From contig NW_024881975.1 of NCBI RefSeq assembly GCF_019059575.1, positions 186,001 to 250,000 of the forward strand: DNA of 64,000 bases. Direction: 5' to 3'. Below the pieces are notes generated by a model, which was given only the letters and a program-made list of their open reading frames with translations, ran no database searches and was not told the origin of the DNA. Shown here piece by piece: positions 9,947 to 63,277 of this stretch; position 1 is the first letter of the stretch; the number at the start of each line of letters is the position of its first letter. A program made the position numbers and the translations under genes. Origin of the DNA: Amphibalanus amphitrite. Its lineage: Eukaryota > Arthropoda > Thecostraca > Balanomorpha > Balanidae.

Positions 9947-10125
9947 TAGTTGCGCCGCTACTCGGCCCGGGTAGCTGCGCCGCTACTCGGCCAGCCAGAG
10001 CGGGTAGTTGCGCCGCTACTCGGCCCGGGTAGTTGCGCCGCTACTCGGCCAGCCAGAGCGGGTAGTTGCGCCGCTACTCGGCCAGCCAGAGCGGGTAGTT
10101 GCGCCGCTACTCGGCCAGCCAGAGC
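9947..10125 (-). repeat. Minisatellite copying the HIPK C-terminal codons and stop
   Basis: About six copies of a unit read on the minus strand as CGAGTAGCGGCGCAACTACC, most extended by GCTCTGGCTGGC to 33 bp; shorter copies lack the extension. The first copy is the real end of HIPK: its last codons encode PLWLAE followed by TAG. Each further copy repeats these codons and the stop inside the 3' UTR. The array therefore began by duplication across the end of the coding sequence. Confidence 0.8.
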
Positions 10126-13100
10126 GGCTGGTACTGCGACTTGCTCGGGCTGAGCGCGGCGTAGTTGAACGCGCCGGCCACCTGCGGGTGTCCGCTGAAC
10201 ACGCTGGGCAGGTGGGCCGGCAGCGGGTGGCCGGACGGGTGCGCCGTCAGCACCGGCCGCGCCGAGCTGTGGTGTGCTGGCGGCGGCAGCAGCCTGCGGG
10301 CACAGGGGCACACACAAACACCACAGTCAGACACACGGCCACCGGGCACAGCAACAGACCACACCATACAGCACCGCAGACCACACCATACAGCGCCACG
10401 GACCACACCGTACAACGCCACAGACCACACCATACAGCACCACAGACCACACCATACAGCACCACAGACCACACCATACAGCACCACAGATCACACCATA
10501 CAGCACCACAGACCACACCATACAGCACCACAGACCATACCATACAGCACCACAGACCACACCAAACACACAGACCACACCATACAGCGCCAGACCATAC
10601 CATACAGCGCCACAGACCACACCAGACAGCGCCACGGACCACACCATACAGCACCGCAGACCACACCATACAGCACCACAGACCACACCATACAGCGCCA
10701 CAGACCACACCATACAGCACCACAGACCACACCGTACAGCACCACAGACCACACCATACAGCACCACAGACCACACCATAGAGCGGCACCACAGACCACA
10801 CCATACACCGCAGACCACACCATACAGCACCACAGACCACACCTGCACACAGCACCACAGACCACACCATACATCACCGCAGACCACACCATACAGCGGC
10901 ACCACAGACCACACCATACATCACCGCAGACCACACCATACAGCACCACAGACCACACCTGCACACAGCACCACAGACCACACCATACAGCGGCAGCCGA
11001 AAGGCGCCCAGCCAGATATACGGCCGCTGATAAGGACCGACAAGGGACAAGCAGTAGCAATTGTAATATCCACATAAGCTCTGGCAGTTCGCTCGTATAT
11101 TCACATTAAATTCGTGCAAAATTAGTTCGTGTATCACACATTGAAAGTTCTTAGGTGTTTTACAACATGGTCCTTGAATACTTGGCCTATTTCGCACTTT
11201 CCCTACTCTTGGATTTCAAGAGCAAAATACCACACCATACAGCGGCACCACAGAGCAAAATGCACCCGTCTAGCTCAACAGTGAGCAACTCTTTCAATGT
11301 CCGAAATAATCATGCCGTGGTCGTTCCTCGGCCTGCGACGCTCTGTTCGGGCCCATCCGGCGCACAGTCGGCTCCCGTGCGTCGGTGACTCACCCGGCCG
11401 GGATCTGCGCCACGGAGCGGCCGGCCGCCGCCGCCGCCAGGTACTGCCCGGCCGCGGCCGCGGCGGCCGCCGCCGACGGCTGTGCCGTGGCCACCGCGTA
11501 CACCGCCGGCCGGCGGAACTCCCGGAACAGCTCGGGCGCCAGCCGCGGACTGAGCGGCGCCAGCGGCGGCGGCTGCGACACCCACGGGCCCGGCGAGACG
11601 TGCGCCGCCGCGTAGTTCCTGCGGAGCACCGGGGGAGGGGCGTCACACGGCGGCCGCGGCCACAACACGCGCACACAGTCACGTCATGAGCACACAGAAA
11701 CGGCAATGGTCCAAAAAGTGTACAATTACCGGTGACCTACACAGGCACTTCTGCACACATAAACGTCTCCATTGAGATACCAAAAAGACCACTGACCACC
11801 GAACGAAACCCTATTTAGGCTGACGCAGATTGTCTTCCCCTGTACCCCGAGGACCCTGGCCGGACGGCCCGGGAGCGGCGCGCGCACCTGTAGGAGGCCG
11901 CCGCTGAGGCGCGGTAGGCCGCGGCGGCCGCCGCCGCCGCTGCCGGGTCCGGCTGCAGCAGCTCGCGGCCGGCGCCGTGGTGGGGGCGGCCCGCCGGCTG
12001 CGAGGCCAGCAGCACCGTGTCGCGCCCGACGGCCGCCGCCGCCGCCGCCGCCAGGTAGTCGCGGTGCGCCGAGGAGACGGCCGGCGCCGGCGCCACCACG
12101 TAGCGCGCGCCGGCCGCCGGCTGTGAGTGGGCCGCCGGCGGCAGCGGCTCGGCCGAGCGGTACTCGTCCCGACGCGCCGACACGTAGCGCACGTCATCGG
12201 CGGCGGGCGGCGGCGGCTCGTCGGCGGCCGGCAGGTAGAGGCTGTGCCGGCGGCCGTCCCACTCGCGGCGCTCCCACTCCTCGGTCTCCGGCGCGGCGGC
12301 GGCGGCCTGGTTCAGGTGACACTCGGACTGAGACTTGGCCAGCAGGCGCTTCTTCTGCGAGACGGGCGCCGACGAGTGGTAGCCGCTGCAGACAGACAGA
12401 CAGACAGACAGTGTCAGTGACGGACCGCACCGCCGGCAGGCGCCGACACCAGTTACATATGACAGACCGAGACTAAAAAGTTAAAATGATACACGAAGAT
12501 GGATACACTTGCAGATCTCATGGGCTACAGAAAAAAAGAAAACCAATTATCAAACCCATGCTCCAGCGTGAGAAAAGGGCACCTGTCCACCATGCATCAC
12601 CAGGGTTCCCGAGCCGAGCGCGGCACAGAGACACGAGGCCTGGTCGGTCTCCAGCCGGCGCCTGGCGCAGACACGGGCCCGCCCCCCCGCCCCCGGCGCG
12701 CGGCGCACCTTGTCGACGGCTCCGTTTTGACGACGGCCACGGCCGGCTGGGTATCCTCGTCGCTGTCGTGCACCACCACCACGCGCGCGCGGCCGGCGGC
12801 ACGCGGCGGCTGGCGCCGGTCGCGCTCCGACGCGCTGCTGGCCAGCACTGAGGCGGCGCTGCACACCGCGGGGGGGGGGGGGCACAGTGAGCGGTGCAGA
12901 CAGGGTGTGCACACAGTGAAACATGCAGCCCCCACTGCCAGGGCACAGCTGCACACAACATCTCAATGGACCGAAAAGGACTGACCCGTAGACAGAGGCA
13001 GCGTCTGAATCTAAATAATTAACGGAGAAATCCCGGGGAAGTGTGAATGCCAATATTTCAGACCAGAGGCGTTGCAGGGACCTCGGTTCAATAAGACAGC

Positions 13101-62000: not shown

Positions 62001-63277
62001 CAGGGCGCGGCATTTTCTTAGCTTGGTGTCGACCAGAACTGCTTCTTGGGGCGTGGTAATGGCTGGCTTGTTGTTCTTTAATGTGTTCACGGGTCACATC
62101 CAATGCAAGTTGTTTAATGACATGAATTTCAAGTGAAGAGGGCCACAAGTGTTTTCTGTATGTGTGAACCTGTAACCTGTATGTGTGTTTCTGTATGTGG
62201 CCCCTGTTTGTTCTGTATGTGCTGTTGAGTCGGTTCATTCGCCCCCAGGGCTGCCACAACATGCTGGGCGCGGGCGCCGACGGCGTCATGCAGGCGATGA
62301 TCCTGAGTATGGGCGCGCTCAAGTTCTCCAACCAGCACCTCGAGTTCGGGATGGAGCCCAAGGATATGCACAGAGACTACGTGTTCAGGTGGGTGTGGAG
62401 CGCAGAGTCAACAGCTGTGTAATTGAACACATTATCTCTGACCTCGCCGCCGACCTGCTGTGACGGCCGTAGCTGACCCGGACCACTCTCTGCCTCCATC
62501 TCCCCCCCCCCCCCGTCCGACAGGCGGGTGAACTTTGGTAACGCCACTCACGTGACGATCCGCGTGGCGGTGGACGACAACAACAAGGCCAACCTGTTCG
62601 TGTCGCTGGACCGCAGCGACCGCTCCTACTTCGGCTGCGACGCCGGCTGCCTGGACGCGCCCGTCAAACTGGGGTGAGCTGCCGCGCCCACTCTGACGCT
62701 CGACGACGTGTGAATGGGGCAAACTGCCGCGAGATGCTAACGGCGTTTCTGTCGCCCTTTCACTAGGCGCTAAAATGAGAGCAAACGACCAACCCTCTCC
62801 CCCGGTTCCCAGCCCGGAGCCGACCCGTTTCCCGGTGAAGCTGACCGATCCCCCCCCCCCCTGTTCCCAGCCCGGAGCCGACCCGTTTCCCGGTGAAGCT
62901 GACCGACCCCCCCCCCTCCCCACCCCACCCCCTGTTCCCAGTCCGGAGCCGACCCGTTTCCCGGTGAAGCTGACCGACCCCCCACCCCCCCCCCCACCCC
63001 ACCCCCTGTTCCCAGTCCGGAGCCGACCCGTTTCCCGGTGAAGCTGACCGACCCCCCCCCCACCCCACCCCCTGTTCCCAGGCCGGAGCCGACCCGTTTC
63101 CCGGTGAAGCTGACCGACCCCCCCCCCCCCCCACCCCACCCCCTGTTCCCAGTCCGGAGCCGACCCGTTTCCCGGTGAAGCTGACCGACCCGCCGACAGC
63201 GGTGCTCTACATCACCCCCGATTGGCAGCACCTCGAGGAGCTCAAGCACACCATCCACGTGAAGGAGGTCAGCCTCG
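56089..63277 (+). CDS. KIAA2013: KIAA2013 orthologue, C-terminal end beyond window
   Basis: Uncharacterised membrane-anchored protein conserved in animals. Eleven phase-consistent exons: 56089-56144, 57537-57682, 57990-58345, 58678-58814, 58949-59066, 59202-59327, 61282-61470, 61694-61864, 62249-62388, 62524-62673, 63153-63277 (571 codons). Exon 1 (MTVEDMIKAGRRLFEGNVS) is assigned from its Kozak-like context and matching phase and is the least certain. Exon 2 has a basic patch (WRRRSRR) and a hydrophobic segment ALFLLLVMSALVLYVGPG, a signal anchor. Family landmarks: LPYVGNGFVAL, YLAHRISPGVLVQDIKV, NATLYYVMS, GCHNMLGAGADGVMQAM, FGCDAGCLDAPVKLG and TAVLYITPDWQHLEELKHTI. The human protein (about 634 aa) ends with a second membrane segment and short tail; the corresponding exon lies past 64000. 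Intron 6 holds a retrotransposon and a donor-derived minisatellite. Confidence 0.9.
56480..57245. repeat. Degenerate 28-35-bp minisatellite in KIAA2013 intron 1
   Basis: About two dozen units based on CCCCATATCCAGTGACCTGA followed by TGACCCCACCATC, becoming more divergent to the right (CCTGTATCCAGTGACATTGT). It is non-coding. I see no exon junction inside the unit, unlike several other arrays in this window. Confidence 0.85.
59318..59780 (+). repeat. 22-bp minisatellite with 20 copies of the KIAA2013 exon 6 donor region
   Basis: Units of 22-24 bp based on GCCGTCTCGGTATGTTACTG. The first is the real end of exon 6 (codons for AVS) and its donor GTCTCG|GTATGT. I count 20 units by the CGTC...TAC pattern, several with an intact CGGTATGT and others changed to CTATATGT or CGCGATAT. 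The array then abuts the retrotransposon fragment. Confidence 0.9.
59790..61065 (-). mobile_element. 5'-truncated non-LTR retrotransposon with intact RT frame part
   Basis: About 360 uninterrupted codons on the minus strand (to stop at 59976) show reverse transcriptase motifs in order: PGWFRSYLTGH, GIFQGSCLGPMLYN, the catalytic YADDTQLVVSG, NGMKINAAKTEMM, LGVIFDSRLTFEPHI and then VRYCSQVFG and QNFAARVISG of the C-terminal region. This is a CR1/jockey-like arrangement. The endonuclease and the N-terminal RT part are missing; homology starts near 61065. The tail near 59790-59870 has TGTAAAATACAAATG-type repeats rather than poly(A). The open frame suggests recent insertion in KIAA2013 intron 6, antisense to the gene. 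Confidence 0.85.
62803..63190 (+). repeat. Six copies of the KIAA2013 exon 11 acceptor and exon start
   Basis: Units of 58-71 bp, each made of a C-rich tract, CTGTTCCCAG, and about 38 nt of exon (CCGGAGCCGACCCGTTTCCC...GAAGCTGACCGACCC). Acceptors lie near 62812, 62870, 62941, 63012, 63081 and 63152. The last continues into the real exon (PPTAVLYITPD). Copies vary by C-run length and single substitutions. Confidence 0.92.

Follow-up and report, generated by a model that had tools for sequence, protein, structure and literature searches.

Gene models and tandem arrays of the window

The window analysed here is a 64,000-nt stretch of the genome of the arthropod Amphibalanus amphitrite (C478:186001-250000; assembly of 807.6 Mb in 2644 contigs). 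It carries three genes, HIPK, MED25 and KIAA2013, in which short tandem arrays copy several splice junctions and a stop codon. Gene models were read from the window sequence and curated by hand, because a home-made gene finder recovered real exons but fused genes, and arrays were called with Tandem Repeats Finder (TRF). Chitin_bind_4 matches in the host genome (150 matches; 150 scored of 705 candidates) agreed with an arthropod host. The models were as follows:

HIPK: minus strand, 19 exons; Pfam Pkinase (1.6e-51)
MED25: minus strand, 15 exons, with the 5' end outside the model; Pfam Med25 (4.7e-49) and Med25_VWA (3.1e-37)
KIAA2013: plus strand, 10 exons; Pfam DUF2152 (6.4e-82)

Because the 5' ends of MED25 and KIAA2013 are not (fully) modelled, exon (e) numbers are lower here than in a preliminary description made from the window sequence alone (MED25 e13, e11 and e6 correspond to its exons 15, 13 and 8, and KIAA2013 e5 and e10 to its exons 6 and 11). 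The other allele of the window was identified as contig C15, with an identity of 98.8% in coding and 95.0% in intron sequence over the aligned bases. When the exon peptides were searched in C15, 36 of 42 gave a full-length match, five a partial match (MED25 e6, e7, e11 and e12 and KIAA2013 e10, several of them glutamine-rich) and one (MED25 e3) no credible match.

Altogether, 88 exon ends were mapped against the TRF arrays, namely 85 splice junctions, two stop codons and the start of KIAA2013 exon 1. Arrays copy seven of these splice junctions (four donors and three acceptors) and one of the two stop codons. The edges concerned, together with one donor that is copied on the C15 allele, are listed below (a slash marks the splice junction):

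9940..10127, minus strand: HIPK stop codon array; six TAG-bearing copies (counted by eye) of ...CTGGCCGAGTAG..., units of 33 and 25 bp; a single copy on the C15 allele (188 vs 45 bp)
19769..19868, minus strand: HIPK e5 donor array (ATACTCG/GTGAGT); 38 bp, 2.6 copies; 2.4 copies on the C15 allele
39735..40303, minus strand: MED25 e13 donor array (CACCAG/GTGAGT); 33 bp, 17.2 copies; 4.2 copies on the C15 allele
42054..42157, minus strand: MED25 e11 donor array (GAGACAG/GTCAGT); 26 bp, 3.5 copies; 2.6 kb on the C15 allele, with 26-bp arrays of 3.6 and 9.5 copies
44183..44324, minus strand: MED25 e7 acceptor array; 50 bp, three copies; hardly differs on the C15 allele
44562..44723, minus strand: MED25 e6 acceptor array (CTCCGGCAG/GTATTCC); 31 bp, five copies; about three copies on the C15 allele
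59319..59751, plus strand: KIAA2013 e5 donor array (CCGTCTCG/GTATGT); 22 bp, 20 copies; allele lengths 286 vs 433 bp
62656..62690, plus strand: KIAA2013 e9 donor; a single copy in the window; about five copies (27- and 32-bp units) on the C15 allele
62799..63191, plus strand: KIAA2013 e10 acceptor array (TGTTCCCAG/TCCGGAG); about 71 bp, six copies

The seven arrays that the preliminary description had reported in the three genes are all borne out by TRF and the gene models, and the MED25 e7 acceptor array is an eighth that it had missed. They do not start exactly on the junction, as had been stated; by TRF they extend 9-39 bp into the exon, and the junction itself is copied. At the MED25 e6 acceptor, the TRF array ends 39 bp short of the junction, and the strict statistics below class it as near rather than spanning. 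A polyglutamine run (42241-42362) crosses the MED25 e11 acceptor by 4 bp; coding repeats were excluded from the counts.

Additionally, ten arrays abut a coding edge at a distance of at most 25 bp on the intron side, at the HIPK e1, e10 and e15 acceptors and e15 donor, the MED25 e5, e12 and e13 acceptors and e8 and e9 donors, and the KIAA2013 e5 acceptor. Such abutting arrays had been noticed before, in smaller number.

13344..13372, minus strand: 21 bp from the HIPK e15 donor; 11 bp, 2.6 copies
13487..13593, minus strand: 8 bp from the HIPK e15 acceptor; 35 bp, three copies; 624 bp at the same place on the C15 allele
16023..16071, minus strand: 15 bp from the HIPK e10 acceptor; 6/12-bp array
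23362..23413, minus strand: 6 bp from the HIPK e1 acceptor; 26 bp, two copies, 100% identity; 4.1 copies on the C15 allele; upstream of the modelled span and outside the statistics
40448..40963, minus strand: 12 bp from the MED25 e13 acceptor; 60 bp, 8.6 copies; 13.9 copies on the C15 allele
41519..41954, minus strand: 9 bp from the MED25 e12 acceptor; 19 bp, 23 copies; 2.0 copies on the C15 allele (441 vs 45 bp)
42827..43029, minus strand: 14 bp from the MED25 e9 donor; 25 bp, 7.2 copies; 15.5 copies on the C15 allele
43505..43603, minus strand: 17 bp from the MED25 e8 donor; 41 bp, 2.4 copies; hardly differs on the C15 allele
45188..45284, minus strand: 6 bp from the MED25 e5 acceptor; 14-bp array
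59159..59187, plus strand: 15 bp from the KIAA2013 e5 acceptor; 12 bp, 2.4 copies; one 12-bp unit fewer on the C15 allele

Concentration of arrays at coding edges

The window genes have their arrays preferentially at coding edges. Under a placement null in which a repeat unit falls anywhere that is not wholly coding within the gene span, 1.68 of the 19 noncoding arrays are expected to span an edge, and seven do (P 7e-4; GC-matched expectation 2.40, P 4e-3). Moreover, 17 of the 19 span an edge or lie at most 25 bp from one, against 3.11 expected (P 3e-12; GC-matched, 4.04 expected). GC content was rejected as the cause of the enrichment, the excess persisting under GC matching.

Because the window was chosen for its arrays, these P values are descriptive, and a second sample was therefore taken, consisting of Pkinase matches in the same genome that were selected by homology, with repeats disregarded. 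Thirty kinase loci were taken in list order out of about 53 places judged distinct, and 25 of them were used, comprising 91 splice junctions, 10 stop codons and 26 noncoding arrays. The loci dropped were L042, L048 and L059 (no junction placeable), L061 (which resembles L060, with 84.6% over 732 bases) and L070, a second copy of the L069 gene (93.5, 96.0, 94.3 and 81.7% over four pieces). This gene, which we take to be MELK-like, has a third copy on contig C1424, and L069 and L070 may be alleles or near paralogues.

Nine of the 26 kinase arrays span an edge, junctions placed by hand included (see below), against 1.78 expected (P 1.8e-5; GC-matched 1.98, P 2.3e-5); one lies within 25 bp of an edge and 16 lie elsewhere. 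With L070 included, the count becomes 10 of 27. The copied edges are the donors of L043 and L060, the acceptors of L046, L047, L051, L060, L063, L066 and L070, and the stop codon of L050, so that two donors and six acceptors (seven with L070) are affected among the splice junctions. Specifically, one L060 intron is affected at both ends: its donor (CCTCCGC/GTGAGT) forms about 20 copies of 29 bp, and its acceptor (CCCCCAG/GCGATGG) at least seven copies of 85 bp. The L047, L051, L046, L063 and L066 acceptors are present in 2-5 copies each. The L050 stop codon, CATCCTGTGA, forms five copies of 45 bp and is a counterpart to the HIPK stop array.

In the window and the kinase loci taken together, 16 of 45 arrays span an edge, against 3.36 expected (P 3e-8), and 27 of 45 span an edge or lie at most 25 bp from one, against 6.0 expected, both with the hand-placed junctions included. 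Copied splice junctions number 15 of 176 (10 of 171 without the five hand-placed ones), and two of the 12 stop codons are copied.

Comparison with the second allele

The C15 allele carries arrays at the same edges with other lengths, some of them reduced to a single copy, indicating that these are active minisatellites and not assembly noise, and the array-generating process is recent by this comparison. At KIAA2013 e10, the C15 sequence diverges soon after the array, and there is no anchored allele comparison. Many kinase places also have a near-identical partner, as would be seen in a diploid assembly whose alleles were not collapsed, and the two copies of one kinase gene at L069 and L070 have the acceptor in one and two copies, respectively.

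Among the allele indels of at least 10 bp, 26 of 72 were of the tandem type by a k-mer test. Seventeen indels were read by eye, together with the HIPK stop, which yielded 10 complete or partial duplications in gene bodies for which the other allele has a single copy. Of these 10 apparent new duplications, seven are no more than 31 bp from a coding edge, against 12.3% of the aligned noncoding positions (P 4e-5), the threshold and the classing having been fixed after inspection and four of the 10 (11219, 11674, 12686 and 21522) being only partial duplications. A 940-bp C15 insertion (window position 18494) that starts with a local copy was left out; when it is counted in, the result is seven of 11 (P 9e-5).

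Two other insertions were observed between the alleles. A 288-bp insertion in the C15 allele (58814/58815; c15rc ~75411-75700) lies between 8-bp repeats, GTACGCGC, and begins at the KIAA2013 e3 donor, so that the first 8 intron bases are doubled; its ends resemble those of a hAT-type miniature inverted-repeat transposable element. A 541-bp insertion found only in the window allele (45808-46348) ends 2 bp from the MED25 e3 donor and shows by eye a 3' end like that of a long interspersed nuclear element.

Origin and fate of the copies

Slippage and end joining are both compatible with the founding step, the indications being mixed. At the KIAA2013 e9 donor, microhomologies of 7 and 6 bp match the unit lengths of 27 and 32 bp exactly. 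CCGCTC stands on either side of the HIPK stop unit, with a spacing of 39 rather than 33 on C15. Beyond the splice consensus, 17 units proved mutually unrelated: their best local scores averaged 5.9, against 5.7 after shuffling, and the highest was 10, against 12 among shuffled units. This upholds the earlier statement that the arrays differ in sequence and do not form one transposon family. Direct-repeat density (6-8-mers, 15-90 bp apart) was considered as a cause of the edge bias and rejected, not being raised at array-free junctions.

A separate observation concerns HIPK exons 12 and 13 (14252-14347 and 14605-14687, minus strand). The end of exon 13 is an in-frame copy of the end of exon 12 that agrees in 81 of 83 bases, including the donor, whereas introns 12 and 13 are unrelated; both exons are also present in C15. 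Exon 13 might represent a spare exon-end copy that was recruited as a new exon.

Interpretation of the edge arrays

We consider it likely that the arrays are edge-spanning minisatellites of the kind named 'mirages' in lancelets, which were duplicated across a coding edge, tolerated and then expanded. First, some 20-90 bp would be duplicated locally in tandem across the border of a coding block, that is, a donor, an acceptor or a stop codon. One border would stay intact (the first donor, the last acceptor or the first stop), leaving the protein unchanged and placing the extra copies in the intron or the 3' untranslated region. Such an allele would be tolerated because the intact border is kept and the protein is unchanged, and its spare copies would be neutral. 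The duplicated pair would then grow or shrink as a minisatellite, producing large copy-number differences between alleles. More tentatively, we propose that an active mutational process might start tandem duplications preferentially at coding-block borders, splice sites and stops alike, so that new duplications would be more frequent at edges than in intron interiors; it might load about 1/12 to 1/17 of the splice junctions with spare copies and feed the birth of splice sites and exons.

Several results weigh against this interpretation. Five of the nine spanning kinase junctions (the L043 donor, the L047 second acceptor, the L060 donor and acceptor and the L066 acceptor) were positioned manually, with knowledge of the array. 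Among them, the kinase profile matches the exons that the L043 and L060 donors close, and the L047 second acceptor, the L060 acceptor and the L066 acceptor are without support from the profile or the gene finder. Without these three, six of 26 kinase arrays span an edge (P 0.006; GC-matched P 0.008); if all five are removed, four of 26 do, which is not significant (P 0.09; GC-matched P 0.12), strict counts of this kind erring in the opposite direction in that arrays visibly copying a splice site are then scored as interior. Additionally, a genome-wide word test showed no strong donor hotspot. Three CAGGTGAGT words at gaps of 8-38 bp occurred 186 times, vs 69 times for the reversed control word, with 9134 and 4644 single words, respectively. 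When distinct arrays were counted by eye (100 of the 186 donor-word entries and all 69 control entries; contigs C1-C535), 24 donor-word and eight control arrays were obtained, a 1.5-fold ratio relative to word occurrences (P 0.20). Both MED25 alleles are among the 24, and further allele pairs occur in the donor and the control list alike. The test is diluted, many CAGGTGAGT words not being donors and many arrays probably being intergenic. Microhomology amounts to only 3 bp at the HIPK stop at the exact unit length of 33 bp, and does not exceed 3 bp at the L069 acceptor. The flat direct-repeat density at array-free junctions leaves the edge bias without a sequence explanation. Moreover, the spliced copy is presumed from protein continuity (first donor and last acceptor read through), and the frame of the MED25 e13 array, with its 33-bp unit, is open over most of its length, so that partial translation is possible.

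The low word-test ratio and the strict kinase count (four of 26, against 1.78) both agree with tolerance alone, in which duplications arise uniformly, wholly coding ones are purged and those touching noncoding sequence survive, without an edge bias. This account is the same as the placement null and predicts 1.68 spanning and 3.11 spanning or near arrays of the 19 in the window, whereas seven and 17 were seen, and the window excess survives GC matching; we regard it as possible, if somewhat doubtful. It is rather unlikely that arrays begin anywhere and that the edge copy, held by selection, refreshes its neighbours and makes edge arrays longer-lived and homogeneous. The kinase arrays that span an edge are indeed the more uniform (median TRF match 92, against 81.5 for interior arrays; nine vs 16 arrays; P 0.008), though a recent origin would look alike, and the lack of a direct-repeat excess at array-free junctions also suits such persistence; however, the apparent new duplications between alleles likewise cluster at edges, with the reservation that the threshold and classing were post hoc.

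A function of the spare splice sites that selection maintains, be it in buffering or regulating splicing or in adding peptide repeats, appears improbable. GT or AG is intact in 77 of 90 spare copies, including all 16 in the MED25 e13 array with its 33-bp unit, but spare GT/AG bases are retained no better (164/180, 91.1%) than other positions (2460/2733, 90.0%; P 0.70; 14 arrays). Unit lengths ignore the frame, six of 18 being divisible by 3, as chance gives (seven with TRF's 36 for L063). Together, these two results give no sign of splice buffering. Moreover, stop codons bear arrays of the same kind, and copy number is free to vary between alleles, down to one. An assembly artefact, a doubt raised with the preliminary description, is very improbable: the array lengths are known from assembled contigs and not from spanning reads, but arrays with differing copy numbers and internal variants occur at the same edges on two separate contigs. 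Hardly any weight is given to a mobile element or introner family inserting at splice sites and then amplifying; the 288-bp insertion with its 8-bp target repeat at the KIAA2013 e3 donor would be of this sort, but the 17 units are unrelated and each is built from its own locus.

The interpretation in the preliminary description is thus partly supported. Enrichment at edges holds in the window and in the kinase sample, down to the count of six of 26 but not that of four of 26. Seeding of duplications at exon ends finds support in the allele comparison, with its classing by eye, and not in the word test. Buffering by spare splice sites, by which the duplications were thought to be tolerated, is unsupported.

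Other features of the window

Several further features of the window were noted. In the model, the 5' part of KIAA2013 exon 2 (57871-57990) does not share the reading frame of the remainder, reflecting an unrecognised small intron or an assembly indel. KIAA2013 intron 5 contains an open reading frame (59979-61277, minus strand) with an RVT_1 match (1e-11), and about 1.4 kb here is missing from C15. Two long open frames on the minus strand (28413-32228 and 33073-35466; 1272 and 798 aa) have no Pfam match; one begins at the MED25 stop and one lies within the longest MED25 intron. In addition, about 82 copies of a 14-bp repeat, TAGGTTGTAGGTTT, occupy 48182-49327, a region of strong GC skew.

Relation to known systems and significance

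In lancelets, tandem repeats that extend across exon-intron borders, at 5' and 3' splice sites alike, have been given the name 'mirages'; they are described for Adh3 and globins, with units of 10-72 and 150-160 bp (PMC3087553). The BflGb6 mirage had six and three units on two haplotypes, and the authors suggest that mirages leave regular splicing undisturbed (PMC3087553). A PGBD5 mirage was added later, with TnC cited (PMC3902484). Somatic length instability is reported for the Adh3 mirage.

As far as these accounts go, the arrays described here resemble mirages in that the unit contains the exon-intron border (seven window and nine kinase splice junctions, including L070), that both donors and acceptors are affected and that copy number differs between alleles (17.2 vs 4.2 at the MED25 e13 donor and six vs one at the HIPK stop). 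They differ in the arthropod host, in the stop codons that are also hit and in the junction count and placement null; here they are known from sequence alone. In the papers cited, mirages are reported from lancelets only, which does not apply here and is a reported range, not a defining property. A search of open-licence papers found no report of arthropod mirages. The mirage type itself is already known, and what is new is the arthropod lineage, the counted frequency with a placement test and the stop codons.

As in the intron gain of the Rogers type (Hellsten; potato RdRp, PMC4974935), tandem duplication creates spare GT/AG sites. Unlike in the cases described there, the single-copy allele of the KIAA2013 e9 donor already has the intron and the array lies at its edge; the other spanned splice junctions of the window have arrays on both alleles where compared, with no new intron seen among them. 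HIPK exon 13 is a possible exception to this difference. Unlike introner elements, the introns concerned share no unit sequence among the 17 units. Unit sizes, interrupted copies, allelic length change and local origin are those of ordinary intronic minisatellites, from which the arrays differ in their placement at or near coding edges.

The arrays apparently do no harm to the genes and might supply raw material for new splice sites and exons. Both gene prediction and the mapping of short reads would be misled by such arrays. If arrays copying junctions are this common, the tandem-duplication route to new introns and exons, which has been argued from few cases, could be followed as it happens between the two alleles of a single animal. 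A mutational bias, besides selection, would then act at coding borders, and lancelets would be no peculiar case.

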